Shown here: positions 6,204 through 60,911 of the stretch, piece after piece
Position numbering within the stretch: the first letter of the stretch is position 1
Layout: each line of letters starts with the position of its first letter
Origin: Glycomyces arizonensis DSM 44726
GTDB taxonomy: Bacteria > Actinomycetota > Actinomycetes > Mycobacteriales > Micromonosporaceae
Length of the DNA stretch: 64,000 nt
Direction: 5' to 3'
NCBI RefSeq assembly: GCF_000482705.1
Contig: NZ_AXWO01000013.1
Location: forward strand, 62,001-126,000
Made by a program: the position numbers and the translations under genes
Notes under the pieces: generated by a model
What the model saw: only the letters and a program-made list of their open reading frames with translations
Told to the model about the DNA's origin: nothing
Databases searched by the model: none

Positions 6204-6255
6204 AGCGTTTGGCGGACGGTGTCATATGCGGAAATACCGAACGGCGTGCACCGGC

Positions 6256-6284
6256 TTGATCACGCAGCAGGAGGCGGGTACCAT
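6256..6284 (+). promoter_or_regulatory. Putative promoter of the toxin-antitoxin pair, leaderless
   Basis: TTGATC (6256-6261) and TACCAT (6279-6284) are separated by 17 bases. The predicted transcription start, 7-8 bases downstream, falls on the antitoxin ATG at 6292. A CATATG palindrome overlaps the -10 and also occurs about 60 bases upstream, where an autoregulating antitoxin might bind. Confidence 0.45.
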
Positions 6285-6291
6285 ATGTGGC

Positions 6292-6534
6292 ATGAAGAAG
6301 ACCACCGTGTATTTTCCCGAGGACCTTGAGCTGCGGCTCGAGGCCGAGGCCCGTCGTACGGGAGCGAGCCAGGCAGAGCTCATCCGCCAGGCTGTGGCGG
6401 CACTGCTCGACCATGTCGAATCGGAGCGCGAACTGAAGCCTTGGCCGACGTTCAACTTCGGCGGTCCGATGACGCTTGAAGAGATGGATCAGGCGATCTA
6501 TGAGAGCATCAAGCGGAAAGTCGCACGCCGTTGA
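6292..6534 (+). CDS. Ribbon-helix-helix antitoxin (CopG/VapB-like)
   Basis: 80 residues. The N-terminus KKTTVYFPEDLELRLEAEA followed by GASQAELIRQAV is a classic ribbon-helix-helix DNA-binding fold: a beta-strand, then two helices. The acidic and hydrophobic C-terminus (about residues 45-80) would wrap the toxin. It overlaps the PIN-domain gene by 4 bases, the standard layout of type II toxin-antitoxin operons in which the antitoxin represses its own promoter. A longer frame from 6226 exists, but the family N-terminus and the promoter position favour the ATG at 6292. The GC content is visibly lower here than in neighbours, as expected for a mobile module. Confidence 0.85.
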   Translation: MKKTTVYFPEDLELRLEAEARRTGASQAELIRQAVAALLDHVESERELKPWPTFNFGGPMTLEEMDQAIYESIKRKVARR

Positions 6535-6968
6535 TACTGATAGCGGACACCTCGGGGCTCATCGCCGCGCTGAATCCAGCAGAAGACATGCACGCCGCCG
6601 CGCGCGAAGTCCTCAAGAGGGAGACCGCTGTGGTCTCGCCGCTGGTGCTGCCCGAATTCGATCATCTGATGGGGCAACGAATCGGATTCGACGCGTCGAC
6701 CACGGCGGTGAAGTTCGTCCTCGATCAGTTCAGTGCGGGGAGGCATCGGTTGGCGTCGATCACGGTCGATGACCTGCTTCGAGCGCATGAGGTTCGGATG
6801 AAGTACGCCGATCTCTGCCTGGACATCGCCGACACGGTCGGCGTCGTTCTCGCGGATCGGTACAAGACCGATCGCGTCTTCACCCTCGACCAGCGCGACT
6901 TCCGTGCTATCAAGCCGCTGACCTCCGGATTTGACGCGTTCAAGATCCTTCCCTACGACGAGGTCTGA
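6531..6968 (+). CDS. PIN-domain ribonuclease toxin (VapC-like)
   Basis: 145 residues with the PIN fold. Acidic metal-binding residues expected for a PIN nuclease are visible: D6 in LIADTSGLIAAL, E42 in VLPEFDHL, D98 in LCLDIADT and D120/D123 in FTLDQRDF. VapC toxins cleave RNA (often tRNA or rRNA) and are neutralised by the upstream antitoxin. Translation starts at TTG, which overlaps the antitoxin stop (TTGA), so synthesis is coupled. All acidic positions are kept, so the toxin is likely active. The target RNA cannot be told from sequence. Confidence 0.88.
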   Translation: MILIADTSGLIAALNPAEDMHAAAREVLKRETAVVSPLVLPEFDHLMGQRIGFDASTTAVKFVLDQFSAGRHRLASITVDDLLRAHEVRMKYADLCLDIADTVGVVLADRYKTDRVFTLDQRDFRAIKPLTSGFDAFKILPYDEV

Positions 6969-46017: not shown

Positions 46018-47046
46018 TCAGTTCAGCGGGGCCGTCGAACCTCGGATCACGATGCGGCACTGCATCGTCTGCACGCCGCGGTCGTGCTCGTCGTCGATGG
46101 CGTCGAACAGGGCCCTGGCCGCGGCGCGGCCCAGCTCCTCCAGGTTCATGTCCACGCTGGTCAGCTGCGGCCTCGCGCCGACGGTCAGGACCTCCCAGTT
46201 GTCGAAGCCCATCACCGCCACGTCGTCCGGCACGGCCCGCCCGCGCTCCCGCAGCGTGTCCAGCACGCCTCGGGCCACCTGGTCGCTGCCGCACAGCACG
46301 GCGTCGACCTCGGGGTGCCGGTCCAGCACGAGCCCCGCGGCCGCGCGCCCCCAACCTTCTGACCAAGTGCCGTACGAGACCTGCCCCACCGGCTCGAGTC
46401 CGGCCTCCTCCAGCGCCGCCGTCGCCCCCGCGACGCGGTCCCTGGCCGCGCTGTAGTCCCGGTCGCCGCTGATGTGCGCGATCCTCGTTCGCCCGCAGGC
46501 GATCAGGTGCTCCACGGCCATCCGCCCGGCCTCGACGTTGTCCGGCACGATCGACAGGTCGTCCGGGTCCTCGGACGGCGCGTAGGCGTAGACCACCGGC
46601 ACGTCCACCGCGTCGGCCAGGGCCGGACGCGGGTCGGTGCTGCTGCCCACGACGATGAGCCCGTCCACCCGGCGGCTGACCAGCGCCTGGACGTGGTGGC
46701 GCTCCCGGATCGCGTCGCCGCGCGCGTCGCACAGGAACACCGACACCTGGCCCGCGCCGAAGGCGTCCTCGGCGCCCATGAGGATCGGCAGGCTGAAGCG
46801 CCCCACCAGGTCCGAGGTGAGCAGCCCGACCGTGCCGCTCCGCCCGGCCAGCAGGCCGCGCGCCAGCGAGTTGGGGGAGAACGACAGCTGCGCGGCAGCG
46901 TCGAGCACTCGCGCCCGCGTCTGCGCGTGCACGTGGTTGCGGTTGTTGAGGGCCTTGGACGCCGTGGCGACCGAGACGCCCGCCAGCTTGGCCACATCGG
47001 ACAACGTCGCGGTGCGGGCGCCGCGCGAACCGGTCGGTCTGGCCAT
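46018..47046 (-). CDS. LacI-family repressor of the arabinoside operon (probable)
   Basis: 342 residues. Helix-turn-helix TLSDVAKLAGVSVATASKAL near residues 13-32, then the hinge and a sugar-binding core (GLLTSDLVGRFSLPILMGAE, DDVAVMGFDNWEVL). The ATG at 47046 has GAAGGAGG nine bases before it; the longer frame to 47157 lacks this. It is divergent from the 13-kb glycosidase operon and probably represses it at the palindrome 47236-47251, with an arabinose-type sugar as inducer. Confidence 0.93.
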   Translation of the reverse strand: MARPTGSRGARTATLSDVAKLAGVSVATASKALNNRNHVHAQTRARVLDAAAQLSFSPNSLARGLLAGRSGTVGLLTSDLVGRFSLPILMGAEDAFGAGQVSVFLCDARGDAIRERHHVQALVSRRVDGLIVVGSSTDPRPALADAVDVPVVYAYAPSEDPDDLSIVPDNVEAGRMAVEHLIACGRTRIAHISGDRDYSAARDRVAGATAALEEAGLEPVGQVSYGTWSEGWGRAAAGLVLDRHPEVDAVLCGSDQVARGVLDTLRERGRAVPDDVAVMGFDNWEVLTVGARPQLTSVDMNLEELGRAAARALFDAIDDEHDRGVQTMQCRIVIRGSTAPLN

Positions 47047-47189
47047 CGCGTCCTCCTTCGTGCCGGGTGCGCCGGGGCTTCGGCGCCGACTGGTCGACTG
47101 TAGCCCACGAGCGGAAAGTTTGCCGTCCAGCCTTTCGGCTGGCGGTGCCCGGCGCACCTGCGGAGTCCCAATTTACTGGGATCGATGCA

Positions 47190-47219
47190 TTGACAACGAC
47201 CGTCGCGAGGCCATAGCAT
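47190..47219 (+). promoter_or_regulatory. Putative promoter of the arabinoside operon
   Basis: TTGACA (47190-47195) and TAGCAT (47214-47219) are 18 bases apart. Transcription would start near 47226, about 70 bases before the first gene. Confidence 0.55.
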
Positions 47220-47235
47220 TTCGTCAGCAGCTTGC

Positions 47236-47251
47236 CCGAAAACCTTTTCGG
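47236..47251. promoter_or_regulatory. LacI-type operator of the arabinoside operon
   Basis: CCGAAAACCTTTTCGG has perfect 7-base arms (CCGAAAA/TTTTCGG) around CC. It lies just downstream of the predicted transcription start and before the ribosome site ACGGAGG (47286-47292), a good place for a roadblock or occlusion repressor. A TTTTCGG half-site repeats at 47255-47261. Confidence 0.6.
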
Positions 47252-47298
47252 TCATTTTCGGACCCCTGACTCTCCTGCCGCGCTCACGGAGGCACGCA

Positions 47299-50200
47299 AT
47301 GGCGCATTCGCATCCGTCCACCCGATCCCTCGCCACCATCGCCACCCTCGTCCTCACCGCCGGCCTCGTGGCCACCGCCGCACCGGCCTCCGCCCAGCAG
47401 ACCATCGGCTTCCCCGTCTTCACCGGCGGCGACGCGGTCCCCGACGAACCGGTCGAGTACACCGTGGACGGCATGATGCCGGCCATGTACGAGGCCGAGG
47501 CCGAGGGCACCGACTTCTGGATGGACCGCCTGCTCGCCCGCGAGGGCGCTGACCCCGCCGGCGACCAGTGGCTCATGACCCGGGGCCGGGCGCTGCTGAT
47601 GCGCGTCCACGACCCCGACGTCATCGGCTTCGGCGGCCAACTCGCCTACTACGACCCGTTCTTCGACCGCACCAGCAACACTGACGGGTTCGTCATCGAC
47701 ATCGGCGACGCCGACTTCACCGAGGACGTGGACCGGCGACGTCAGACGCCGAGCCACTGGACGAGTGTCCATGAGAGCGATAACTTGACCGTCGAGGTCC
47801 AGAAGTTCATCACGCACAACAACGTCGCGGTCGCGAACCTCACGATCACGAACAACGGCGGCGGGACCACCGTCCCCATTCGCGTCGACTCCGACTTCGC
47901 CTGGCAGGCCGACGGCGAGGAGCTCACCGGCGTCCTCGACGTCCAGAACTCCCGCGGGGAGCGCCTCACCACCGTCTTCCCGCGCCTGTCGGGCACCGGA
48001 CTCACCCCCTCGGGCGGCGCGCTCACCGGCGAACTCGCCCTCGACGACGGCGAATCGGCCACGGTCAAGGTCCAGCTCGGCATGATCGCCGAGGAGATCC
48101 CCGAGTCGGCCACCGAGTACGACGCCTACCGCGACGCCGCGCCCGACGCCGCCTTCGCCGAGCAGGTCCAGACCTACAACCGGTGGTGGGCCGAGAACCT
48201 CCCCTACTTCGACGTGCCCGACGAGGAGATCAAGAAGTTCATCTACTACCGCTGGTGGCTGATGCGCTACAACTACCTCGACGCCGACATCCCCGGCAAC
48301 GACTTCCAGTTCCCCACCTCCATCGAGGGCGTCACCGGCTACAACAACGCCATCGCGCTGACCGTCCCGATGTTCATCGACGACCTGAAATACCTGCGCA
48401 ACCCCGTCTACGCCTACGGCCCCTGGGTCTCCACCGGCGAGTCCTCCGAGGGCGGGCGGTTCATGGACAATCCCGGCGACCCCGAGAACTGGTCGAACTC
48501 CTACACCCAGTACATCGCCGAGGCCGCCTGGCGCTCCTACCAGATCCACGGCGGCCAGCTCCCGATCGTCGCCAACCTCGCCCGCTACGCCGAGGGGGAC
48601 GTGAAGGGCCAGCTGGAGGCGTTCGACACCAACGACGACTGGCTGATCGAGTACGACTGGGGCGCGATGACCGGCAACGACGCCGACGCCGTCTCCTTCC
48701 ACTGGAGGGAAGGCAACCTCGACCGCGCCGAATCCGCCTACCAGTACTCAGGCGCCCTCGCCGCCGCCCAGGCCTACGAGCTGATCGGCAACGAGGACAA
48801 GGCCGAGGAGATGTACGAGATCGCGGGCAACATCCAGCACGCCATCACCGACGTCCTGTGGAACCCCGAGACGCAGCTGTTCGAGCACGTCCACGTCGAC
48901 TCGGGCGAGCACGTCCCGTGGAAGGAGATCAACAACTACTACCCGTTCTCCGTGGGCGCCATCCCCAACGAGGAGCCCTACACCGACGCGCTGCGCCTGT
49001 TCACCGACCCCGACGAATACCCGATCTTCCCGTTCTACACCGCCAACCAGGCCGACAAGGCCGAGGCCGCCGAAGCCGGATTCCCCGGCTCGAACAACTT
49101 CTCCCAGATCAACTCCACCGTCCAGTTCCGACTCTTCTCCTCGGTGATCCGCAACTACGACACCGACGCCATCACCGCCGAGGACTACAAGAAGCTCCTG
49201 TACTGGAACGCCTGGGCCACCTACATCGACGGCGACACCGCCTGGCCCGACTCCAACGAGTTCTGGGCCGACTGGAACCCCGACACCCAGCACATCGACT
49301 ACCGCTCGTGGATCCACCACACCACGCTCGGCTCGAGCATCTGGACCATCGTCGAGGACGCCATGGGCCTGCGCCCCAGAACCGACAACGCCGTCGAACT
49401 CTCCCCGATCGACATCGGCTGGGACCACTTCACCGTCAACAACCTCCGCTACCGCAACGCCGACCTCACCATCACCTGGGACGAGCCGGGCGACGGCGAG
49501 ACCTACTACCCCGGCGTCCCCGAGGGCTACTCGGTCTTCATCAACGGTGAACGCACCCTCACCCTCGACGGCCTCGTCCCGGCCGTGTGGAACCCGCAGA
49601 ACGGCCAGGTCGAACTCACCGGCGGCGAAGGCGAAGTGCTCTTCAGCCACCCCGCGCCCGGCATGGCGGCCCCCGAGGACGTCGAGCTCGACGGCCGCGT
49701 CGCCGACGTGTTCGCCAAGGCGGGCGCCGACCTCACCGGCGACGCCGGCGAGAACCTCGCCGAAGGCGCCACCGCCACGGCCTCCTACACCGCCGAGGGC
49801 ACCAGCGTCGCCGGCGCCGTCGACGGCACCACCGTCAACGCGCCGTACTGGAGCAGCGCCGGATCGGGCAACACCAGTGACTGGTACGAAGTCGAATTCG
49901 ACAAGGCGAAACACGTCGACCAGGTCCGGCTGTACTTCTACCGCGACCGCACCTCCGGCGGCCTGCTGGAACCGTCGACCTACCGAATCGAGTACTACGA
50001 CGACGGCGAGTGGGCGCCGGTGACCGGCCAGGCCGCCGAACCGGCGATCCCGCAGGCCAACTACAACAAGATCAGCTTCGACGACGTCAAGACCGACCGG
50101 ATCCGCGTCGTCATGGACCACCAGGCCGGGCACGCCACCGGGCTCAAGGAGTTCCAGGTCTTCCGCAGCAAGGACCACGTCCCCGCCGCCGAGAACACGG

Positions 50201-51387
50201 CGCCGTACGTCGTGGCCCGCAACGACCTGTCCTTCCGCCAACCGCTCCAGGCCGAGCTCACCGGCACCGTCAAGGACGACGCCCTGCCCTCGGGCGGCGA
50301 GCTGACCAGCACGTGGTCCGCCGTCGACGGGCCCGGCTCGGTCATCTTCGAGGACGCGGGGGCCGCGACCACCGTCGCCACCTTCACCGCTCCAGGCGAA
50401 TACACGCTCCGGCTCACCGCGAGCGACGGCGAACTCGAGAACGCCTCGACCGTGACCGTCACCGTCGAGGCACCGGACGACCGCGTCAACGTCGCGCCAG
50501 CCGCCGAACCCAGTGCGTCCTACACCTCGCCGTGGGAGAACGTCGACGCGATCAACGACGACATCGAGCCGCCGCGCTCCAACGACGGCGCCAACCCCCG
50601 CTGGGGCGCCTGGCCCGAACAGGGCGAGCAGTGGGTCCAGCTCGATTGGGAGACGCCCGTGCGCGTCGGCGCCGCCGACATGTACTTCTTCGCCGACGGC
50701 GGCGGCGTGCTCGCCCCCGCGTCGTGGACGATCCAGTACCGTGACGGCGACCAATGGGTCGACGTGGCCGCCGACGGCTCTTACGGCACCGAGACCGACC
50801 AGTACAACCAGGTGACGTTCGCCCCGGTGACCACCACCGGGCTCAGGGCCGTCATGCAGAGCGGCGGCGCCTCCGTCGGCGTCCTCGAATGGAAGGTCTT
50901 CGCCGAGGCTCCCGAATCGGTGCGGCAGATCCACCAGCCCACCACCGTGGGCGTCGTCCCCGACCTGCCGTCCACCGTCACCTGCGTCTACGCCGACGGC
51001 ACCCGGCTCGACCTCCCGGTCGTGTGGGAGGCGATCGGCGAGAACGACGTGGCCGAACCGGCCACCAGCACCGACGTGAGCGGCCTCGTCACCGGCCTCG
51101 CCCTGGAGGCCACCGCCACCGTCCACGTCAGACTCACCGACGAAGTCGAGATCACCGCTCTGGAAACCGAGGAGATCACCACCCTCGCGGGCGTCGCACC
51201 GCAGCTGCCCGCCACCGTCACCGCCGTCTACAACGACGGCTCCAAGGACAACGTCACCACCACCGTGACCTGGGACGACATCGATCCCTCGGCGTACGCC
51301 GAACCGGGCTCGTTCACCGTCACCGGCACCATCGACGGCACCTCGCTCACCGCGGAGGCCGCCGTCACCGTCATCGAATCCAGCTGA
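47299..51387 (+). CDS. Large secreted glycosidase: (alpha/alpha)6-type catalytic region, two F5/8C, PKD-like and two Ig-like modules
   Basis: 1362 residues. Signal peptide with cleavage after ASA near residue 33. Residues about 35-270 are beta-rich (FFDRTSNTDGFVIDIGDADF). Residues about 280-720 are helical and Trp/Tyr-rich (IKKFIYYRWWLMRYNYLDAD, EINNYYPFSVGAIPNEEPY, IDYRSWIHHTTLGSSIWTIV), like MGH1/GH63-related (alpha/alpha)6 barrels. Then F5/8 type C (about 815-955), PKD-like (about 968-1060), second F5/8C (1064-1204) and two Big_4-type Ig modules (about 1207-1278, 1282-1358). I infer a cell-surface or secreted enzyme for plant arabinosylated glycoprotein or arabinan, perhaps GH121-like (beta-L-arabinobiosidase). 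The family is not certain and catalytic Glu residues cannot be fixed by eye. First gene of the operon. Confidence 0.85.
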   Translation: MAHSHPSTRSLATIATLVLTAGLVATAAPASAQQTIGFPVFTGGDAVPDEPVEYTVDGMMPAMYEAEAEGTDFWMDRLLAREGADPAGDQWLMTRGRALLMRVHDPDVIGFGGQLAYYDPFFDRTSNTDGFVIDIGDADFTEDVDRRRQTPSHWTSVHESDNLTVEVQKFITHNNVAVANLTITNNGGGTTVPIRVDSDFAWQADGEELTGVLDVQNSRGERLTTVFPRLSGTGLTPSGGALTGELALDDGESATVKVQLGMIAEEIPESATEYDAYRDAAPDAAFAEQVQTYNRWWAENLPYFDVPDEEIKKFIYYRWWLMRYNYLDADIPGNDFQFPTSIEGVTGYNNAIALTVPMFIDDLKYLRNPVYAYGPWVSTGESSEGGRFMDNPGDPENWSNSYTQYIAEAAWRSYQIHGGQLPIVANLARYAEGDVKGQLEAFDTNDDWLIEYDWGAMTGNDADAVSFHWREGNLDRAESAYQYSGALAAAQAYELIGNEDKAEEMYEIAGNIQHAITDVLWNPETQLFEHVHVDSGEHVPWKEINNYYPFSVGAIPNEEPYTDALRLFTDPDEYPIFPFYTANQADKAEAAEAGFPGSNNFSQINSTVQFRLFSSVIRNYDTDAITAEDYKKLLYWNAWATYIDGDTAWPDSNEFWADWNPDTQHIDYRSWIHHTTLGSSIWTIVEDAMGLRPRTDNAVELSPIDIGWDHFTVNNLRYRNADLTITWDEPGDGETYYPGVPEGYSVFINGERTLTLDGLVPAVWNPQNGQVELTGGEGEVLFSHPAPGMAAPEDVELDGRVADVFAKAGADLTGDAGENLAEGATATASYTAEGTSVAGAVDGTTVNAPYWSSAGSGNTSDWYEVEFDKAKHVDQVRLYFYRDRTSGGLLEPSTYRIEYYDDGEWAPVTGQAAEPAIPQANYNKISFDDVKTDRIRVVMDHQAGHATGLKEFQVFRSKDHVPAAENTAPYVVARNDLSFRQPLQAELTGTVKDDALPSGGELTSTWSAVDGPGSVIFEDAGAATTVATFTAPGEYTLRLTASDGELENASTVTVTVEAPDDRVNVAPAAEPSASYTSPWENVDAINDDIEPPRSNDGANPRWGAWPEQGEQWVQLDWETPVRVGAADMYFFADGGGVLAPASWTIQYRDGDQWVDVAADGSYGTETDQYNQVTFAPVTTTGLRAVMQSGGASVGVLEWKVFAEAPESVRQIHQPTTVGVVPDLPSTVTCVYADGTRLDLPVVWEAIGENDVAEPATSTDVSGLVTGLALEATATVHVRLTDEVEITALETEEITTLAGVAPQLPATVTAVYNDGSKDNVTTTVTWDDIDPSAYAEPGSFTVTGTIDGTSLTAEAAVTVIESS

Positions 51388-51413
51388 ACTCCGACCGGCA
51401 CGAGGAGCAGACC

Positions 51414-52880
51414 ATGCTGAAATCCACGAAGCGACCCAGAACGAGGGCCCTGTTCGCCGCCGCCCTGGCGGCGGCCCTCGCGGGTGCCCTCCAGACCGCC
51501 ACCGCCGCACAAGCCCAGGTGACCAATGTGGCCACCTCGGCGACGCCGTCGGCGTCCCACACGTCCCCGTGGGAGACGATCGACGCGATCAACGACGGCA
51601 TCGACCCGCCCCAGTCCGACGACACGCAGAACGCCCGCTGGGGCACCTGGCCCGAAGAGGGCGAGCAGTGGGTCCAGCTCACGTGGGGTGGGGCGGTCAC
51701 CGTCGCCTCCGCAGACCTGTACTTCTTCGACGACAACGGCGGCGTCCGCGTCCCCGCCTCCTGGCACATCGAATACCTGTCGAACGGCACCTGGCAACCG
51801 GTGAACGCCCACGGCGCCTACGGGACCGCCGTCAACCAGTACAACTCGGTCCAGTTCACCGAGGTCACCACCACCGCGCTCCGCGCCGTCATGCAGAGCG
51901 GCGCCGCCAGCGTCGGCGTCCTCGAATGGAAGGCCTACGGCGAAGGCTCCGGGACCGGCACCGGATCGGGCAACCCGATCGTCACCGACATCTACACCGC
52001 CGACCCGGCCACGCTCGTCGTCGACGACACCTTCTACATCTTCACCGGCCGCGACGAGGCCGCCCCCGGCCAGCAGGCGTTCGTCATGGACGAATGGCAC
52101 GCCTTCACCTCCACCGCGCCCGACGACGACCCCGACGCCTGGACCGACCGCGGCGCCGTCCTCTCCCTCGACACCTTCGACTGGGCCGGCGCCAACGCCT
52201 GGGCCTCCGAAGTCGTCGAGGGCCCCGACGGGCGCTTCTACTGGTTCGTCTCCGTCGACGGCAGCACCGACGGCGGTTGGATGAACATCGGCGTCGCCGT
52301 CGCCGACGACCCCCTCGGACCCTACGAGGACGCCATCGGCGGCCCGCTCGTCTCCGACTCCACGCCGAACTCCTCGGCGCTCAACATCGACCCCACCGTC
52401 CACATCGATGACGACGGCCGCATCTACATGTACTGGGGCTCCTATTGGCAGCCGCGCGTCGTCGAACTGAACCAGGACATGACCTCCCTCGCCGGACCGG
52501 TCACGACCCCGCAGGGCCTGACCGACTTCTGGGAGGCCCCCTGGATGTTCGAGCGGAACGGCACCTACTACATGGCCTACGCCTCGAACGGCGGATCCGG
52601 CTGCGTCACGAGCTCCTCGTACGCCTGCATCCGGTACTCCACCGCCACCGACCCGATGGGCCCCTGGACCCACCGCGGCGTCGTCCTCGGCCAGGTCAGC
52701 TCCACGACCAGCCACCCGGCCATCATGGAGTTCGACGGCCAGTGGTGGATGGTCTACCACACCGCCGACGCGCCCGGCGGCGACGACTTCCACCGCTCCG
52801 TAGCCATCGACAGGCTCTATTTCAATCCCGACGGCACCATGCAGCAAGTCATCCAAACCACTGGAGGTCAACCGTCATGA
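51414..52880 (+). CDS. Secreted GH43 glycosidase with N-terminal F5/8C domain
   Basis: 488 residues. A signal peptide (LFAAALAAALAGALQTATAA) is followed by an F5/8C sugar-binding domain (about 37-178), the linker GSGTGTGSGNP, and a GH43 propeller (about 190-480). The catalytic base Asp is in VTDIYTADPATLVVDDTFYI, the modulator Asp in LNIDPTVHIDDDGRIYMYWG and the acid Glu in DFWEAPWMFERNG. It likely removes alpha-L-arabinofuranose from side chains, like HypAA in Bifidobacterium. The F5/8C domain is a near copy of the second one in the preceding gene. The ATG at 51414 follows GAGGAG, and the stop overlaps the next start (ATGA). Confidence 0.9.
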   Translation: MLKSTKRPRTRALFAAALAAALAGALQTATAAQAQVTNVATSATPSASHTSPWETIDAINDGIDPPQSDDTQNARWGTWPEEGEQWVQLTWGGAVTVASADLYFFDDNGGVRVPASWHIEYLSNGTWQPVNAHGAYGTAVNQYNSVQFTEVTTTALRAVMQSGAASVGVLEWKAYGEGSGTGTGSGNPIVTDIYTADPATLVVDDTFYIFTGRDEAAPGQQAFVMDEWHAFTSTAPDDDPDAWTDRGAVLSLDTFDWAGANAWASEVVEGPDGRFYWFVSVDGSTDGGWMNIGVAVADDPLGPYEDAIGGPLVSDSTPNSSALNIDPTVHIDDDGRIYMYWGSYWQPRVVELNQDMTSLAGPVTTPQGLTDFWEAPWMFERNGTYYMAYASNGGSGCVTSSSYACIRYSTATDPMGPWTHRGVVLGQVSSTTSHPAIMEFDGQWWMVYHTADAPGGDDFHRSVAIDRLYFNPDGTMQQVIQTTGGQPS

Positions 52881-55528
52881 ACCTTCCCGTCACCCGAAGG
52901 ACCGCCCTGCGCCTCGGCGCCCTGACCACCGCCGCCCCGGCCGTCACCGCGATCGCGGTCCCGGCCGCCGCCAAGACGCGCCCACAAGGCTCGTGGGCGG
53001 TCGAGCCCTTCGCGCTCGACCAGGTCTCGCTCGACGAGAGCCTGTTCACCGAGAAGCGCGACAGGATGCTCGGCTACGCGCTCGGCTACGAGGCCGACCG
53101 CGGCGAACTCGCCGGGCCCGACCGCATGCTCTACAACTTCCGGGCCGCCGCCGGGATCGACAACCCCGACGGCTCCGCGCCGCCCGGCAGCTGGGACAAC
53201 GAGACCGGGTACCTCCGGGGCCACTTCAGCGGCCACTTCCTGAGCATGCTCTCCCAGGCGTACGCGGGCTCGGGTGACGGGATCTACCTCCGCAAGCTCG
53301 CACACATCGTGGACGGGCTCGGCGAATGCCAGGCCGTGCTGGCCGCCGCCGCGGCCCGCCCGACGCCCCGCGTCGAGGGCCGCAGTGGCACCGCGATCCG
53401 CCTGACCGGATCGCCCCTCGGGCACGCCGAACACCTCGCGCTGCCCGAAGGGCTCGTCGACGGGCTCGACGAGATCACCGTCGCCGTCTGGATCAACCCG
53501 GCGGCCATCGACCCCGAGGGCCTGCCCGACCCGAGACAGGACCCCGCGCCGCTCGCCAACGGCGCCAAGGTCTTCGATTTCGGGGCCGACGCCGATGCGC
53601 ACATGTACCTCACCGTGCGCGCGAGCAACGACGAGCCCGGCCCGCGCTTCGCCATCACCACCGGCGGCGAGGACGCCGAGCAGCGCGTCACCGGCGGCGC
53701 CGAACTGCCGACGGGGGAGTGGACGCACCTGGCCGTGACGATCGGCGGCGGCACCGCGACGCTGTACGTCAACGGCACCGCCGCCGCAGCGGCCTCGGTG
53801 AGCCTCACCCCGGCCGACCTCGGCGCGAGCACCGCGAACTGGATCGGCCGCGGCCAGTTCCCGCAGGGCAGCGTCCAGTACCTGGGCGCCACCGTCGACG
53901 AGTTCGGCGTCTTCGACCGGGCACTCGGCGCCGACGAGATCGCCTCGCTCGCCGCGGGAACGGGAGACGGCGGCAATATCGCTTGGTACCGCTTCGGCGA
54001 GGAGCCCGGCCCGGTGGCCGCCGACAGCTCCGGCAACGACCGCGACGCCCGCGTCATCGCCCCCACCGACGGCGGCCGCCACCCCGGCTTCCTCGCCGCC
54101 TATCCCGAGACCCAGTTCATCAGGCTGGAGGAGTTCGCCACGTACGGCGGCAACGCCGGGATCTGGGCGCCCTACTACACCTGCCACAAGATCATGGCCG
54201 GGCTCCTCGACGCCCACCGCCTCGCGGGCAGCGCCGCCGCCCTCGACATCGCCGTCGGCATGGGCGAATGGGCACACTCGCGCCTCGCCGAGCTCCCGCG
54301 CGAGCGCCTCGACCGGATGTGGTCGATCTACATCGCCGGGGAGTACGGAGGCATGAACGAGAGCATGGCGACCCTCGCCGGGCTCCACCCGGACCGGCCC
54401 GAGTTCCTCGAGACGGCGAAGCGGTTCGACAACACGACGCTGCTGGCCGACACCGTGGCGGGCGTCGACACGCTCGACGGCAGGCACGCCAACCAGCACG
54501 TCCCGCAGTTCACCGGCTACCTGCGCATGTATGAAGAGGGCGCGGGGGAGGACTACAAGACCGCCGCCGAGAACTTCTGGTCCATGGTGGTGCCCCACCG
54601 GACCTACAGCCACGGCGGCACCGGCGTCGGCGAGATCTTCCGCGGCAGGGACGTCATCGCCGGATCGCTCTACCAGTTCCCGAACGACCCCAACCACGCC
54701 GAGACCTGCACGATCTACAACATGCTCAAGCTGTCGCGGAACCTGTTCTTCCACACCGGGGACCCGAAGTACATGGAGTACTACGAGCGGGGCCTATACA
54801 ACCAGATCCTCGCCTCCCGGCGCGACGCCGACAGCACCACCAGCCCCGAGGTCACCTACTTCGTGCCCGTGCGGCCCGGCCGGTGGCGCGGCTACGGCAA
54901 CACCGGCACCTGCTGCGGCGGCACCGGCATGGAGAACCACACCAAGTACCAGGACTCGGTCTACTTCGCCGCCGCCGACGGCAAGACGCTCTACGTCAAC
55001 CTCTACATGGCGTCCGAACTGGACTGGTCCGACCGCCGCCTCACCGTCGCGCAGACGACCGAGTACCCGTTCGAGGGCGCCAGCCGCCTGACCTTCAGCG
55101 GCCGCGGGCGCGGCCACTTCGACGTGGCCCTGCGCGTCCCCGGCTGGGCAAGCGAGTTCACCGTCACCGTCAACGGCGTCGAGCAGGAGATCGACGCCGA
55201 GCCCGGTACGTACGCCACCATCGGCCGCCGCTGGAGGGACGGCGACGTCGTCGACGTGTCGATGCCGCTGCGCCTTCACACCGAGGCCGCCATCGACGAC
55301 CCCGACGTCCAGTCCGTCTACTACGGACCGACGCTGCTGGCCATTCAGCACGAGGCCGTCGGCGACGACCTCGAGACCGGACTGATCGACCTCGCGGTCG
55401 GTGAGAACCCGGAGGAGGTGTTCGAGCCCGGCGAGGAGCCCCTCCACTTCACCGCCGAGGGCTACACCTTCGCGCCGTTCCACATCGCGAACCGCGACCC
55501 GTACCACCTGTATTGGCGGAGGCGATAA
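52877..55528 (+). CDS. Secreted GH127/GH146-type beta-L-arabinofuranosidase with nested LamG domain
   Basis: 883 residues. A twin-arginine signal (VTRRTALRLGALTTAAPAV) suggests Tat export. The catalytic domain is split: residues about 40-160 carry its first helices (ETGYLRGHFSGHFLSMLSQA), then a concanavalin/LamG-type domain (about 161-400; TGEWTHLAVTIGGGTATLYV), after which the barrel resumes (GIWAPYYTCHKIMAGLLDAH). The zinc-Cys active site of this clan is intact: E609 and C611 in NHAETCTIYN, C679 and C680 in TGTCCGGTGMENH, of which one Cys is the nucleophile. It should release beta-L-arabinofuranose outside the cell. The start overlaps the GH43 stop (ATGA). Confidence 0.9.
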   Translation: MNLPVTRRTALRLGALTTAAPAVTAIAVPAAAKTRPQGSWAVEPFALDQVSLDESLFTEKRDRMLGYALGYEADRGELAGPDRMLYNFRAAAGIDNPDGSAPPGSWDNETGYLRGHFSGHFLSMLSQAYAGSGDGIYLRKLAHIVDGLGECQAVLAAAAARPTPRVEGRSGTAIRLTGSPLGHAEHLALPEGLVDGLDEITVAVWINPAAIDPEGLPDPRQDPAPLANGAKVFDFGADADAHMYLTVRASNDEPGPRFAITTGGEDAEQRVTGGAELPTGEWTHLAVTIGGGTATLYVNGTAAAAASVSLTPADLGASTANWIGRGQFPQGSVQYLGATVDEFGVFDRALGADEIASLAAGTGDGGNIAWYRFGEEPGPVAADSSGNDRDARVIAPTDGGRHPGFLAAYPETQFIRLEEFATYGGNAGIWAPYYTCHKIMAGLLDAHRLAGSAAALDIAVGMGEWAHSRLAELPRERLDRMWSIYIAGEYGGMNESMATLAGLHPDRPEFLETAKRFDNTTLLADTVAGVDTLDGRHANQHVPQFTGYLRMYEEGAGEDYKTAAENFWSMVVPHRTYSHGGTGVGEIFRGRDVIAGSLYQFPNDPNHAETCTIYNMLKLSRNLFFHTGDPKYMEYYERGLYNQILASRRDADSTTSPEVTYFVPVRPGRWRGYGNTGTCCGGTGMENHTKYQDSVYFAAADGKTLYVNLYMASELDWSDRRLTVAQTTEYPFEGASRLTFSGRGRGHFDVALRVPGWASEFTVTVNGVEQEIDAEPGTYATIGRRWRDGDVVDVSMPLRLHTEAAIDDPDVQSVYYGPTLLAIQHEAVGDDLETGLIDLAVGENPEEVFEPGEEPLHFTAEGYTFAPFHIANRDPYHLYWRRR

Positions 55529-55575
55529 GCCACCGCCGCAACCCCTTTGATCCCTTACCGTTAGGAGCACAGGTC

Positions 55576-56880
55576 ATGAGATTCGACAAGCGCCGACCGG
55601 CCCGGCGCGCGGCCGCGGCGGTCGCCGCGGGCACCGCCGCCGTGCTGCTCGCCGCCGCCTGCGGCGACGGCCGCAGCGGAGGCGGCGGCGACCAGGAGGT
55701 CGTCCTCGAAGGCGTCGACGACGGCACCACCCTCACCATGTGGACCAGGGCCGCCACCCAGGCCCAGTCGCAGGCGCTCGTGGACGCCTACAACGAAAGC
55801 CACGAGAACCAGGTGGAGCTGTCGGTCATCCCGACCGACGACTACCAGACGCGCGTGGGCACCGCCGCCGGGAACCAGGAGCTGCCCGACCTGTTCGCCA
55901 TCGACGTGGTGCTCGCGCCGAAGTTCACCACCGCGGGCGCCTACCTCGACATCACCGACCGGATCGACTCGCTCGAGTTCGCCGACGCCCTCGCCCCCTC
56001 GCACATCGAGGTCGGCACCGTCGACGACCGGAAGTACCTGGTCCCGCACACCCTCGACCTGTCGGTCCTGTTCTACAACAAGGACCTCTACGAGCAGGCC
56101 GGCCTCGACCCCGAGAAGCCGCCGACCACGCTCGTCGAGTTCGCCGAGCACGCCCGCGCGATCGCCGAGCTCGGCGACGACATCCACGGCACGTTCTTCG
56201 GCGGCAACTGCGGCGGCTGCTACCTCTTCACGTGGTGGCCGTCCATCTGGGCCGAGGGCGCCGAGGTCATGAACTCCGACGGCACCGAGTCGCTCCTGGA
56301 CTCCCCGGAGGCCCAGGAGGTCTACTCGATCTGGCGCGGCCTGGTCGAGGACGGCGCGGTCGCTCCCGGGCACGCCGAGGAGCCGGGCGCCACCTGGACC
56401 GGCCTGTTCCCCGAGGGCAACATCGGCGTCATGCCGATGCCCTCCACGATGCTCGGCCTCATGCCCGAGGACCTGAACATGGGCGTCGCGCCCATCCCCG
56501 GTCCGAGCGGCGGCGAGTCCACCTTCGTCGGCGGCGACTCCATCGGCATCAGCGCCAACTCCGAGCACCCGAACCAGGCGTGGGACTTCCTGCGCTGGAG
56601 CCTCCAGGAGGACACGCAGATCGACATCCTGGCCGCGGGCGGCGACGTCATGGCCCGCACCGATCTGGCCGACAACGAGTACTACGCGGACAACCCGAAC
56701 GCGGTCATCATGAACGACCTGGTCGCCATCGGCCGCACCCCGTACTCGCTGAACTTCGGGCAGACCTTCAACGACCCGCAGGGGCCGTGGCTGCCGCTGG
56801 TCAGAGAGGCGGTGTACGGAGACCCGAACGCCGACCTCAGTGCCCTCAACGACGCGATCACAGCCTCGCTGAGCAGTTAG
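55576..56880 (+). CDS. Sugar ABC transporter solute-binding lipoprotein
   Basis: 434 residues. The signal peptide ends in the lipobox LLAAAC, so Cys29 or so should be lipid-anchored. The mature protein is a type 1 extracellular binding protein (LTMWTRAATQAQSQALVDAY, ending DPNADLSALNDAI). It captures the oligosaccharide released by the three secreted enzymes. The ATG at 55576 has TAGGAG nine bases upstream; the longer frame to 55513 is not supported. It is followed at 11 bases by its permeases. No ATPase is in the operon; a shared MsiK-like ATPase is expected. Confidence 0.95.
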   Translation: MRFDKRRPARRAAAAVAAGTAAVLLAAACGDGRSGGGGDQEVVLEGVDDGTTLTMWTRAATQAQSQALVDAYNESHENQVELSVIPTDDYQTRVGTAAGNQELPDLFAIDVVLAPKFTTAGAYLDITDRIDSLEFADALAPSHIEVGTVDDRKYLVPHTLDLSVLFYNKDLYEQAGLDPEKPPTTLVEFAEHARAIAELGDDIHGTFFGGNCGGCYLFTWWPSIWAEGAEVMNSDGTESLLDSPEAQEVYSIWRGLVEDGAVAPGHAEEPGATWTGLFPEGNIGVMPMPSTMLGLMPEDLNMGVAPIPGPSGGESTFVGGDSIGISANSEHPNQAWDFLRWSLQEDTQIDILAAGGDVMARTDLADNEYYADNPNAVIMNDLVAIGRTPYSLNFGQTFNDPQGPWLPLVREAVYGDPNADLSALNDAITASLSS

Positions 56881-56891
56881 GACAACTCCAT

Positions 56892-57761
56892 ATGCGATAT
56901 TCGCGCAAGTTGACCGGCGCGGCCTACGCGGCACCCGTCGCACTGTTCGTGCTGGTCTTCTTCGTCGCGCCGCTGCTGCTGGTCGGACGCATGTCGGCGT
57001 CCGACTGGCCGCTGCTGGCCGGCGACCTCGGGGTGAACCTCCCCGACAACTACACCGCCATCGGCGACAACCGCCTGTTCTGGCCCGCCGTCGGCTTCAC
57101 GCTGAAGTACACCGGCATCGTCGTGGTGATCCTGGTGGGCCTCTCGCTCGGCCTGGCCATGCTCGTGTCCGGCACCCGGAAGGGCACCGGCTTCTTCCGG
57201 ACCGCCTACTTCCTGCCCACGACCCTCGGCCTGGCCTCGGCCTCGCTGCTGTTCTTCGGCTTCTACAGCCCGTCCATCGGGCCGCTCGACCCGATCCTCC
57301 AAGGGCTCGGCATCACCGACGAGCCGATCTCGTGGCTCGGGACCCCGAACATGGCCTTGTTCTCCACCGTCGTGCTCATCGTGTGGAAGTTCGCCGGGTT
57401 CTTCATGATCATCCTCCTGGTGGGCCTCCAGGCGATCCCGCCGGACGTCTACGAGGCCGCCCGGCTCGACGGTGCCGGCCGCTGGCAGGCGTTCGTGCAC
57501 ATCACGCTGCCGCTGCTGCGCCCCGCGCTCGGCCTGGTGCTCATCCTCAGCATCACCGGCTCGCTGCTGGCGTTCGACCAGTTCTTCATCCTCACCAAGG
57601 GCGGACCGGACAACAGCACCGTCACCGTGGTGCAGCTGATCTACCGGGAGGCGTTCCAGCGCTTCGACCTCGGTGCCGCGGCGGCCATCTCCGTGGTGGT
57701 GCTCCTGGCGCTGCTGGTGCTCAACATCGCCCAGTTCCGCTCACTGAGGAGGGACCAATGA
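56892..57761 (+). CDS. Sugar ABC transporter permease (MalF type)
   Basis: 289 residues, six predicted helices. The EAA loop DVYEAARLDGAGRWQAFVHI near residue 195 is the ATPase contact. It forms the channel with the next gene, to which it is coupled by an ATGA overlap. The ATG at 56892 is the first start after the binding-protein stop. It belongs to the arabinoside operon. Confidence 0.93.
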   Translation: MRYSRKLTGAAYAAPVALFVLVFFVAPLLLVGRMSASDWPLLAGDLGVNLPDNYTAIGDNRLFWPAVGFTLKYTGIVVVILVGLSLGLAMLVSGTRKGTGFFRTAYFLPTTLGLASASLLFFGFYSPSIGPLDPILQGLGITDEPISWLGTPNMALFSTVVLIVWKFAGFFMIILLVGLQAIPPDVYEAARLDGAGRWQAFVHITLPLLRPALGLVLILSITGSLLAFDQFFILTKGGPDNSTVTVVQLIYREAFQRFDLGAAAAISVVVLLALLVLNIAQFRSLRRDQ

Positions 57762-58582
57762 CGCGCCGAGGGGTTTGGAACACGACCTCCTACTACGTGC
57801 TCGCGGGCGGCCTGGCCGTGCTGTTCCTGTTCCCGCTGGTCTGGACCGGGTACGCCTCGGTCGCGCCGCACGGGGCCACCAACCAGCAGGACGGGTTCGG
57901 CTTCGGCAACTACCAGACCCTGCTCGAATACGACTCGGGTCTCCTGCGCTACCTGTGGAACAGCACCTACGTGTCGCTCTTGACCGTGCTGTTCACGCTC
58001 CTGCTGTCGTTCGTCGGCGGCTACGCGTTCGCCCGCTTCAAGTTCCCCGGGCGCGACACGCTGTTCCTTCTGACCATCGCGATCCTCATGGTGCCCTACA
58101 GCACCCTGCTGATCCCGCTCTACACGCAGCTGGGCGACATCGGCCTGCGCAACTCGCTGTTCGGGCTCTCGCTCGTCCTCACCCTCTACCAGCTGCCGTT
58201 CGCGGTGTTCATGATGCGCATCTCGTTCGAGGCGGTGCCCAAGGAGATCGAGGAGTCGGCGATGGTGGACGGCTGCGGGTCCATGGGCGTCCTCACCCGC
58301 ATCATGCTGTTCGCCGTGTGGCCCGGCCTGATCACCGTCGGCCTGTTCTCGTTCCTGGCCGCCTGGAACGACTTCATCGCGCCGCTCATTCTCGTCAGCG
58401 ACGCCGACAAGGCCGTGCTGCCGGTGGCGATCGCCAACCTCCGCCAGCAGTCGATGGGCGCCGTCGACTTCGGAGCGACACAGGCGGGCGTGGTCGTCAT
58501 GGCCCTGCCCTGCCTGGTGCTCTTCGCACTGCTGCAACGTCACTATGTCCGAGGATTCATGTCAGGAGCTATCAAAGGATGA
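57758..58582 (+). CDS. Sugar ABC transporter permease (MalG type)
   Basis: 274 residues, six predicted helices. The EAA loop is EIEESAMVDGCGSMGVLTRI near residue 170. It pairs with the preceding permease. Both ends are coupled by four-base overlaps (ATGA), including the one with the cytoplasmic GH127 gene, which supports joint uptake and hydrolysis. Confidence 0.93.
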   Translation: MTRRGVWNTTSYYVLAGGLAVLFLFPLVWTGYASVAPHGATNQQDGFGFGNYQTLLEYDSGLLRYLWNSTYVSLLTVLFTLLLSFVGGYAFARFKFPGRDTLFLLTIAILMVPYSTLLIPLYTQLGDIGLRNSLFGLSLVLTLYQLPFAVFMMRISFEAVPKEIEESAMVDGCGSMGVLTRIMLFAVWPGLITVGLFSFLAAWNDFIAPLILVSDADKAVLPVAIANLRQQSMGAVDFGATQAGVVVMALPCLVLFALLQRHYVRGFMSGAIKG

Positions 58583-60462
58583 GCAAGCCAACGCCAGTGC
58601 TGCCCTCCCAGAGCACGTTGCGCCCCCTGGGGCTCGACGAAGTCCGGATCACCGGAGGGTACTGGGCCCGCAGGCAGCAGACCAACGCCGAGGCCACCAT
58701 CTGGCACTGCCTGTACTGGCTGGAGGAACTGGGCTGGCTGGCCAACTTCGCGAAGGCGGGCTCCGGCGAGCCGTTCGAACGGGCCGGACGCGAGTTCTCC
58801 GACTCCGAGATCTACAAGCTCGCCGAGGCCATGGCCTGGGAGATCGGCCGGAGCGGCTCGCCCGAACTGGAGGAGCGGTTCGTCCGCCTCACCGGGCAGA
58901 TCGCCGCCGCGCAGGAGAGCGACGGCTACCTCAACACCCAGTTCGGCCACCCCGGCCAGCGGCCGCGGTACTCCGAACTGGAAGGAGGCCACGAGCTGTA
59001 CTGCTACGGGCATCTCATCCAGGCCGGGGTGGCGCGGCTGCGGACCCGCGGCGAGGACGACTTCACCAGGATGGTCCGGCGCGTCGCCGACCACGTCTGC
59101 GACGTCTTCGGCCCCGGCGGCATCGAGCGGATCTGCGGGCACGCCGAGATCGAGGTCGCCCTGGCCGAGCTCGGCCGCGCCACCGGCGAGCGGCGCTACC
59201 TGGAGCAGGCGAAGCGGTTCATCGACCGGCACGGCGAGCACACCCTCGCCGACGGCGGCTTCGGGCGCGTCTACTTCCAGGACGACGTGCCGGTGCGCGA
59301 GGCCGAGGTGCTGCGCGGGCACGCGGTCAGGGCCCTGTACCTCGCCTCGGGCGCGATCGACGTCGCGGTCGACACCGGCGACGCCGAACTGCTCGAAGCC
59401 GTCCGGCGCCAGTGGGACCGCACGATCGCCAGGCGCACGTACCTGACCGGCGGCATGGGCTCGCAGTACTCCGACGAGGCCTTCGGCGACGACTTCGCGC
59501 TGCCGCCGGACCGGGCCTACTCCGAGTCGTGCGCGGGCGTGGCCGCGGTGATGACGGCGTGGCGGCTGCTGCTGGCCACCGGCGAGACCTCCTACGGCGA
59601 CATGATCGAGCGGATCGCCTGGAACGTCCTGGCCGGTGCCGTCGCCCCGGACGGGAAGTCGTTCTTCTACGCCAACCCGCTGCACCAGCGCACCGCCGAC
59701 CAGGACCCGGTCGCGGGCGAGCTGTCGCACCGCGCGGCGGGCGGGCGGCGCGCGCCCTGGTTCGACGTCTCGTGCTGCCCGACGAACCTGGCGCGCACGT
59801 TCGCGTCCTTCGCGGCGTACGTCGCCACCGCCGACGACGGCGGCCTCCAGATCCACCAGTACACGCCCGCGGCCATCGCCACCGAGCTGGCGGGCGGCCC
59901 GGTCGAGGTCGCCGTCGAGGCCGACTACCCCGACAGCGGCGCGATCACCGTCCGCGTCGACCGCAACGGGGCGGGGGAGTGGACGCTGGGCCTGCGGGTG
60001 CCCGCCTGGGCCGAGGGCGCGGTGCTGACCGAGCCGTCGGGGGAGCGGCGCGAGGTCGCGCCCGGCGCGGTGAGCCTCACGCGCGACTTCGCCGCCGGGG
60101 ACGAGGTGCGCTTGGAACTGCCGGTGGAGCCGCGGTGGACCGGGCCGGACCCGCGCATCGACGCGGTGCGCGGCTGCGTCGCCGTCGAGCAGGGCCCGCG
60201 CGTGCTGTGCGCCGAGTCGATCGACCTGCCGGACGGGGCGGACGTCGCCGACCTGACCGTGGACACCGGCAAGGCCCCGGTGGGGGACGACGGCGTGGTG
60301 ACCGTCGCCGGACACGTCCACATGAACGCCGACGGCTGGCCTTACGGGCCTGACCCGGACCCGGAGACGGGACGCGAGGCCACAGAGGTCCGCCTCATCC
60401 CGTTCCATCTGCGGGCCACGCGGGAACCGGCCTCGATGCGGGTCTGGCTGCCGGTCGAATAG
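58579..60462 (+). CDS. Cytoplasmic GH127 beta-L-arabinofuranosidase (HypBA1-like)
   Basis: 627 residues with no signal peptide. The fold is an (alpha/alpha)6 barrel plus beta-sandwiches. The active site of GH127 is present: E316 and C318 in YSESCAGVAAVM, C399 and C400 in FDVSCCPTNLARTF. In HypBA1 the matching residues are Glu338, Cys340, Cys417 (nucleophile) and Cys418, a zinc-binding set with similar spacing. It should split imported beta-L-arabinobiose-type sugars to free L-arabinose. It is the last gene of the operon; a hairpin follows 17 bases later. Confidence 0.95.
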   Translation: MSKPTPVLPSQSTLRPLGLDEVRITGGYWARRQQTNAEATIWHCLYWLEELGWLANFAKAGSGEPFERAGREFSDSEIYKLAEAMAWEIGRSGSPELEERFVRLTGQIAAAQESDGYLNTQFGHPGQRPRYSELEGGHELYCYGHLIQAGVARLRTRGEDDFTRMVRRVADHVCDVFGPGGIERICGHAEIEVALAELGRATGERRYLEQAKRFIDRHGEHTLADGGFGRVYFQDDVPVREAEVLRGHAVRALYLASGAIDVAVDTGDAELLEAVRRQWDRTIARRTYLTGGMGSQYSDEAFGDDFALPPDRAYSESCAGVAAVMTAWRLLLATGETSYGDMIERIAWNVLAGAVAPDGKSFFYANPLHQRTADQDPVAGELSHRAAGGRRAPWFDVSCCPTNLARTFASFAAYVATADDGGLQIHQYTPAAIATELAGGPVEVAVEADYPDSGAITVRVDRNGAGEWTLGLRVPAWAEGAVLTEPSGERREVAPGAVSLTRDFAAGDEVRLELPVEPRWTGPDPRIDAVRGCVAVEQGPRVLCAESIDLPDGADVADLTVDTGKAPVGDDGVVTVAGHVHMNADGWPYGPDPDPETGREATEVRLIPFHLRATREPASMRVWLPVE

Positions 60463-60479
60463 AGGGATAGAGAGATGAA

Positions 60480-60507
60480 GGGTGGCACGGTGCGCGTCGT
60501 GCCACCC
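60480..60507. terminator. Hairpin terminator of the arabinoside operon
   Basis: GGGTGGCACG (60480-60489) pairs perfectly with CGTGCCACCC (60498-60507) around an 8-base loop. It also lies just beyond the convergent HxlR gene. Confidence 0.82.
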
Positions 60508-60524: not shown

Positions 60525-60911
60525 TCAGGCCGCGGCGGTGAGCCGGTCGTAGTCCCGGCGCGCCTCGATGATGTCGGGCTGGTGGCGCTCGGCCCACTCG
60601 AGCAGGCCGTTGAGGTGCGTGTACAGCTCCCGCGCGCTCGCGGTGGCGCTGTACTCCACCTTCGGCGGCACGGTGGGGTGGACGGTCCTGGTGAGCAGGC
60701 CGTCGCGTTCGAGGTTGCGCAGCGTCAGGGTGAGCATCCGGCGGCTGATGCCGGGAATGCCGCGCTCGAGCTCGGTGTAGCGGACCGGGGCCTTGGTGGC
60801 GGCCACCAGGATCGACACCGCCCACTTCCCGGCGACGCGGTCGATGACCTGGACGATGGGGCAGGCCTCGGCCTGCACGTCGGACTTGGGCAGTACGCAG
60901 TCGTCGGTCAT
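60525..60911 (-). CDS. HxlR-family transcriptional regulator
   Basis: 128 residues. The N-terminal cysteine and winged helix read CPIVQVIDRVAGKWAVSILV, then YTELERGIPGISRRMLTLTL and LERDGLLTRTVHPTVPPKVE, the whole HxlR domain. Such regulators sense electrophiles or oxidants through the Cys. It is divergent from a DHA2-type exporter gene 200 bases away, which it probably controls. The gap contains a GGCAC...GTGCC inverted repeat (61017-61032) as one candidate site. Confidence 0.93.
   Translation of the reverse strand: MTDDCVLPKSDVQAEACPIVQVIDRVAGKWAVSILVAATKAPVRYTELERGIPGISRRMLTLTLRNLERDGLLTRTVHPTVPPKVEYSATASARELYTHLNGLLEWAERHQPDIIEARRDYDRLTAAA

Follow-up and report, generated by a model that had tools for sequence, protein, structure and literature searches.

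A predicted LacI-repressed locus for plant beta-L-arabinooligosaccharides in Glycomyces and related actinomycetes

Which plant glycan is served by a compact glycosidase operon of the actinomycete Glycomyces arizonensis DSM 44726, and to which kind of known system does it belong? The operon lies in a stretch of 64,000 nucleotides (the window; positions 62001–126000 of contig C9, NZ_AXWO01000013.1) of the 5.05-Mb draft genome in 49 contigs. It consists of seven tightly packed genes on the + strand (47299–60462), divergent from a LacI gene on the − strand. We consider it probable that this is a LacI-repressed variant of the hyp/bau-type loci, used for the beta-L-arabinooligosaccharides of plant hydroxyproline-rich glycoproteins of the extensin type. 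The first-pass annotation had described the divergent LacI gene and seven close co-directional genes, closed by a single hairpin and encoding three secreted glycosidases, a binding lipoprotein, two permeases and a cytoplasmic GH127. The coordinates hold, as do three gaps of 26 (GH121/GH43), 47 (GH146-type enzyme/binding lipoprotein) and 11 bases (lipoprotein/first permease) and 4-base ATGA overlaps at the remaining three junctions, and each label is backed by family scans. The additional secreted enzyme, first assigned broadly to GH127/146, is indeed present, its precise type being GH146 with an inserted LamG domain. The statement that the operon lacks a transporter ATPase was correct for the operon itself; a UgpC-type ATPase is coded elsewhere in the genome.

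Gene 1 (47299–51387, + strand as for all seven) encodes a predicted secreted GH121 protein of the beta-L-arabinobiosidase type, 1362 residues in length. Residues 72–812 matched the HypBA2 structure 6M5A (614 bits, E 4.3e-183), covering the whole catalytic region, and the F5/8C, PKD and Big_4 domains stand behind this catalytic part. In HypBA2 the residues E383, D515 and E713 are essential by mutagenesis (PMC7263609). They map to E343, D461 and E654 of gene 1. The closest named relative, from Glycomyces tenuis, was 85 percent identical with all 1362 residues covered, and was followed by other Glycomyces species. A GH121 search of genome contigs matched 175 stretches, with 170 relatives; the best 80 loci, from 17 named actinomycete genera, were kept, and the three residues were conserved in all 80.

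The last gene (58579–60462) encodes an Ara127N/HypBA1-like GH127 of 627 residues, in which no signal stretch was visible by eye. Its three Pfam domains are the catalytic, middle and C-terminal ones, and it scored 312 bits to Ara127N and 271 bits to HypBA1. The site is composed of a Glu acid/base together with a Glu and three Cys of the zinc site (E300, E316, C318, C399 and C400), roles which we in part presume; these residues were kept in 61 of 62 relatives, the exception being truncated at the end of its locus (62 relatives here and 61 in the partner count below reflect different thresholds). Gene 2 (51414–52880) encodes a predicted secreted GH43 of 488 residues, a predicted alpha-L-arabinofuranosidase by domain scan and PDB match. 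It has an F5/8C-type domain and a GH43 domain with the acids present, and what we take to be its active-site residues were kept in 36 of 36 relatives. By eye, signal-like N-terminal stretches were visible on the GH121, GH43 and GH146-type enzymes, the last with an RR motif. Between the enzyme genes lie those of an ATP-binding cassette (ABC) sugar-binding lipoprotein (55576–56880, 434 residues, Pfam SBP_bac_1, with a lipobox-like stretch by eye) and of two ABC permeases recognised by family scans, one of the UgpA/MalF type (56892–57761, 289 residues) and one of the GlcU/MalG type (57758–58582, 274 residues).

This gene set proved to be conserved across actinomycete genera. With presence thresholds of our own, and with loci cut by contig ends left among the 80, LacI was found in 63 loci, GH127 in 61, the binding protein in 58 and each permease in 56. 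All three transporter genes occurred together in 56 loci, 55 of which also had GH127, and every component of the window was present in 18. The suggestion that the combination may be new for the lineage was refuted: GH121 is present in 15 of the 22 Glycomyces genomes (at 1e-30), the 80 loci of 17 genera mostly have partners, and hypBA2 homologs in some actinomycetes had already been mentioned, citing earlier work (PMC6085000). A 2020 description had GH121 mostly from bifidobacteria and Xanthomonas (PMC7263609). The one openly licensed PMC paper found to mention Glycomyces together with arabinofuranosidase deals with a nematode. In a sample of the class, 22 of 394 genomes had GH121 at 1e-60, 12 of these being of a distant type (410–434 bits). 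Two of the matches, both from one family, showed a GH121 of approximately 2070 residues adjoining LacI and a binding protein; gene 2 shares 52 percent identity with a GH43 in one of these loci and 45 percent with a short stretch in the other.

The regulator gene (46018–47046, − strand) encodes a LacI-family protein of 342 residues with Pfam LacI and Peripla_BP_3 domains, in a BauR-like position. Its open reading frame (ORF) extends to 47157, and the start was set at the ATG at 47046 because a ribosome site is found there and the start is kept in relatives. The operator was learned from an alignment of 14 LacI–GH121 spacers, one from the window and 13 from Glycomyces relatives; a further Glycomyces locus, the fourteenth relative (L014), in which no more than a fragment of LacI occupies the expected position, was left out. 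The alignment showed a sigma-70-like promoter (47190–47219, + strand) made of TTGACA at 47190–47195 and TAGCAT at 47214–47219 with a spacer of 18; the first hexamer was kept in 14 of 14 spacers and the second was variable. Between this promoter and the GH121 start, one conserved 16-base palindrome was present, CCGAAAANNTTTTCGG, which in the window reads CCGAAAACCTTTTCGG (47236–47251). A repressor would be expected to bind at such a place, downstream of the promoter. It was the single match in the window at up to two mismatches, with 0.05 expected from shuffles.

The 80 loci contained 39 operator sites at up to one mismatch, distributed over 38 loci, and 37 of the 39 stood next to one of the genes of the set; for comparison, 60 scrambled palindromes of equal composition gave a mean of 0.08 and a maximum of 1. 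Fourteen of the sites belonged to Glycomyces, the source of the motif, and 23 of the 25 found elsewhere were beside a gene of the set. The neighbour rule was generous, as it accepted operators lying up to 600 bases ahead of a stop-to-stop ORF or within its first 450 bases, with a divergent LacI counted too. A LacI gene beside the genes and a shared upstream operator, the marks of a BauR1-type regulon, were both found among the actinomycete loci; the bifidobacterial motif itself is published as a figure. The operator appears common to a part of the actinomycetes, and would be the target of LacI. In Glycomyces salinus (L016 14633) a second operator, with one mismatch, was located before the binding-protein gene; that locus showed neither GH43 nor GH146.

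The likeness to the bifidobacterial hypBA1-hypBA2-hypAA locus, already seen in the first-pass annotation, was borne out: the gene content matches the published description and the catalytic residues are those expected. LacI, ABC transporter, GH127, GH121 and GH43 are alike in the hypBA1-hypBA2-hypAA/BauR1-BauABC system of Bifidobacterium longum (PMC7263609, PMC5928203), where one predicted regulon spans GH127, GH121 and the transporter, and where GH121 bears F5/8C and Big_4 domains, as in Glycomyces. Judged by the published description, the Glycomyces locus differs in a GH121 with a PKD domain and no visible C-terminal anchor, and in the extra GH146-type enzyme. In Xanthomonas euvesicatoria the GH43, GH121 and GH127 of xehypBA1-BA2-AA act in sequence on Ara4-Hyp (Hyp, hydroxyproline), and GH121 and GH43 are secreted without a membrane anchor (PMC6085000), as predicted for Glycomyces. 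The Xanthomonas operon is upregulated by HrpX in a species said to be unable to use arabinose (PMC6085000), whereas Glycomyces has LacI control, ABC import and araBDA.

The araBDA genes, on contig C29, encode a ribulokinase (756 bits, cut-off 583), a class II aldolase and an arabinose isomerase. A single ATPase of the genome, coded on contig C8, scored above the cut-off of the UgpC model (459 vs. 432 bits); it is a candidate for the MsiK-type ATPase that we take to be shared among transporters in actinomycetes, and the operon may use it. We propose the following scheme, in which the substrate, linkages, order of action and inducer are predictions. Outside the cell, GH43 would remove alpha-linked arabinose, GH121 would then release the disaccharide Araf-beta1,2-Araf (Araf, arabinofuranose), and the GH146-type enzyme would take off further beta-arabinofuranosyl residues, with the F5/8C and LamG modules holding the secreted enzymes on the substrate. 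The binding lipoprotein and the two permeases would import the disaccharide, powered by the shared MsiK/UgpC-type ATPase coded elsewhere, and the cytoplasmic GH127 would split it into arabinose for metabolism by AraBDA. The imported sugar would relieve the repression by LacI at the palindrome.

A second GH121 was observed in the same genome on contig C17 (L095 10489–13970); over residues 17–750 its identity to gene 1 is 88 percent. Towards the end of the catalytic region the reading frame shifts, which makes this gene a decaying copy or the product of an assembly error; no second copy was found in the 21 other Glycomyces genomes at E 1e-30. Two secreted proteins with an HExxH motif are encoded beside it (L095 9148–10425 and 14314–15015). 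The first lies 63 bases downstream on the same strand and combines a domain of the F5/8C type with one of 245 residues that has the motif HELGHTFGLDD. Of the 80 GH121 loci, 20 have this domain, at 64–71 percent identity; the H, E, H, G and D of HExxHxxGxxD were invariant in all 21 sequences, and the front modules differed or were absent. No cut-off of the Pfam and NCBIfam peptidase families was reached, the best scores being 21.4 bits for Reprolysin_5 (cut-off 27) and 21.6 for TIGR03296 (110.8), and a profile search of PDB sequences gave no match at E up to 1. The AlphaFold model was too poor for use (predicted local distance difference test, pLDDT, 43.9; predicted template modelling score, pTM, 0.44). 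Proteolysis by this family is suggested by its motif.

In four loci, those of Actinoplanes lutulentus, A. aureus, A. couchii and Paractinoplanes atraurantiacus, the HExxH gene was the first behind the operator. On C17, the second GH121 has an operator with one mismatch ahead of it, and a divergent HExxH protein has one with two mismatches. In related bacteria there are signs that a secreted protease-like protein may be run by the same LacI switch. In the wider family (61 genomes, counted by eye), the HExxH family was present in 17 of 19 genomes with GH121 and in 7 of 42 without (Fisher p 8e-8, uncorrected for relatedness; three of the 7 hold GH121 fragments). In the class sample the proportions were 3/22 and 8/372 (p 0.019). 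The family is associated with GH121 and is not exclusive to it: exclusivity was ruled out by 8 of the 11 class-sample carriers, which had no GH121 match at 1e-60 (two of the 8 carry only short fragments of the HExxH family). A constant neighbourhood was ruled out as well, the two genes being within 10 kb of each other in only 7 of the 17 genomes having both, the second GH121 described above included. In the part of the openly licensed PMC literature consulted, no paper tied GH121 to a metalloprotease or to the CCGAAAANNTTTTCGG operator.

A separate Glycomyces operon on C17 (L131 2551–19001, with L095 133–2109) encodes an oligopeptide ABC transporter, an alpha/beta hydrolase, a GH146-type enzyme, a GntR regulator, flavin adenine dinucleotide, 2Fe-2S and pyridine-nucleotide proteins, and proteins of the dihydrodipicolinate synthase and proline racemase families. 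Two structures matched the hydrolase at 337 and 336 bits, one of them being named AT3g61540; the other 8 of its 10 PDB matches, all weak, were named proline iminopeptidase or related. The GH146-type enzyme (189 bits to BT0349) had no leader by eye. The racemase-family protein scored 343 bits as proline racemase (cut-off 556) and 337 bits as 4-hydroxyproline epimerase (cut-off 376), and neither name is secured because both scores are under the cut-off. This operon probably couples peptide import, a GH146-type enzyme and hydroxyproline breakdown, the genes being read as what we take to be a hydroxyproline pathway. Among eighteen other Glycomyces regions compared, nine kept this gene order over the stretch covered, one was without the GH146 and GntR genes, and eight had a more distant set in which GH146 is missing; 3 of the 22 Glycomyces genomes were without a match to the C17 gene at 1e-60. 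Membership in the LacI regulon was ruled out, as no operator was found within two mismatches in L131, and a tracking of GH121 by this operon within the genus was not supported (8/10 vs. 7/12). HypBA2 leaves one arabinose on hydroxyproline (PMC6085000), and for this reason the operon would fit the leftover arabinosyl-hydroxyproline.

Put together, these observations allow us to suggest, tentatively and at clearly less than even odds, a two-armed programme by which filamentous actinomycetes would eat plant hydroxyproline-rich glycoproteins whole. The first arm would combine LacI-controlled deglycosylation by GH121, GH43 and GH146 with disaccharide import and undescribed secreted metalloproteases, often bearing carbohydrate-binding modules. 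In the second, found in Glycomyces, arabinosyl-hydroxyproline peptides would be imported by Opp, the leaderless GH146-type enzyme would remove the last arabinose inside the cell, prolyl-aminopeptidase-like trimming would follow, and hydroxyproline would be burned. For Latescibacteria, too, genome data have led to the proposal that algal wall glycoproteins, extensins among them, are used for both their sugars and their protein, through GH127 and general endopeptidases (PMC4454575); in the actinomycetes, the locus, the operator and the protease-like family are linked.

Gene 3 (52877–55528, 883 residues), a predicted secreted beta-L-arabinofuranosidase, bears on the identity of the substrate. It scored 255 bits to BT0349 and 158 to Bll3HypBA1, and at most 86 to GH127 structures; it shares the catalytic barrel and the Cys and Glu site residues with these two GH146 enzymes (5OPJ, 8K7X), and the active-site residues were kept in 45 of 45 relatives. 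The model was of medium quality (pLDDT 71.8, pTM 0.74), and the exact LamG junctions are uncertain. With this model, Foldseek returned GH146 structures at the top, then LamG-type folds of several unrelated proteins, including domain 4 of the arabinanase AbnA (5hon). The LamG domain, at approximately residues 157–401, is inside the catalytic fold in all nine of the 14 Glycomyces loci that have the gene; 22 loci (Lentzea, Actinoplanes, Asanoa and others) had a C-terminal LamG, about 40 percent identical, and 12 Streptomyces and 2 Kibdelosporangium proteins had none. Bll3HypBA1 also has LamG modules (PMC10850190), the location inside the catalytic fold distinguishing the Glycomyces enzyme. In Glycomyces buryatensis (L006 13965–17804) the gene was split by one in-frame stop directly after LamG.

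Several points weigh against an extensin-type substrate handled exactly as in the known systems. Gene 1 reached 1044.2 bits with the HypBA2 model NF041578, far under the curated equivalog cut-off of 3200, and equal specificity is therefore not established: gene 1 is a member of GH121, and its identity as HypBA2 itself goes beyond the sequence score. The GH43 may remove the alpha-1,3 cap as HypAA does, but in a comparison that covered solved structures its nearest relative was gly43N (225.5 bits), not HypAA. The GH146 type and GH43, found in 45 and 36 of the 80 loci, are not universal; seven loci had no partner at the thresholds used, and 42, including all those of Lentzea and Nonomuraea, had no operator at up to one mismatch. 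Bll3HypBA1 acts on arabinogalactan protein (AGP) and arabinan, cleaving beta1,3-Araf, and BT0349 belongs to a rhamnogalacturonan I (RG-I) locus (PMC10850190). Such data leave some room for another function, in which GH121 would free the disaccharide from side chains of beta-arabinofuranosyl-capped pectic arabinan or AGP. The resemblance of the nested LamG to AbnA and the proximity of the GH43 to gly43N, which we take to be an arabinan-acting enzyme, go in this direction. We nevertheless regard such a substrate as unlikely: the GH43 had just 52 bits to the endo-arabinanase model (cut-off 750), no galactanase was recognised in the operon by the family scans, the linked protease-like family suits a glycoprotein target, and the two GH121 enzymes described act on Ara3-Hyp (PMC7263609, PMC6085000).

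Arabinose is also present on plant signalling peptides and small glycoconjugates (PMC5897480), and small arabinosylated molecules or peptides, such as signalling peptides or flavonoids, might be the substrate instead of wall glycoproteins; this seems very improbable, the binding-type modules on all three secreted enzymes suggesting a polymeric, wall-bound substrate. A chance neighbourhood or a decaying cluster, which the frame-broken second GH121 and the relatives without GH43 or GH146 might evoke, is contradicted by the intact frames, the junction overlaps, the shared operator and the conservation across genera, and can practically be dismissed. The use of extensin-type arabinooligosaccharides remains the reading that we prefer. 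The core of the locus is of the known hyp/bau kind, and its variant features are the GH146 type with a nested LamG, the protease-like partner and an operator found across some of the actinomycetes.

The hairpin closing the operon (60480–60507) has an 11-bp stem. Folding of the segment 60463–60520 gave a z of −3.7, with an equally good fold in 1 of 200 shuffles; no T-run was found after the hairpin, which is therefore not a canonical intrinsic terminator. The next gene (60525–60911, − strand) is convergent with the operon. Elsewhere in the window, two small overlapping genes at 6226–6968, with a lower third-position GC content (0.75–0.79), resembled by eye a ribbon-helix-helix/PIN toxin–antitoxin pair. 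The segment 11269–19381 encodes what we presume, by eye from the sequence starts, to be GH43-like, GntR-like, LacI-like and large GH2-like proteins; perhaps it is another sugar locus.

For a cysteine glycosidase, the insertion of LamG inside the catalytic fold is an unusual means of acquiring a binding module. How bacteria may open up hydroxyproline-rich glycoproteins can be approached directly through the operator and the protease-like family linked to it. GH121 is widespread, and apparently regulated, among actinomycetes from soil and from plants, which suggests that glycans of the extensin type are a commonplace carbon source in soil.

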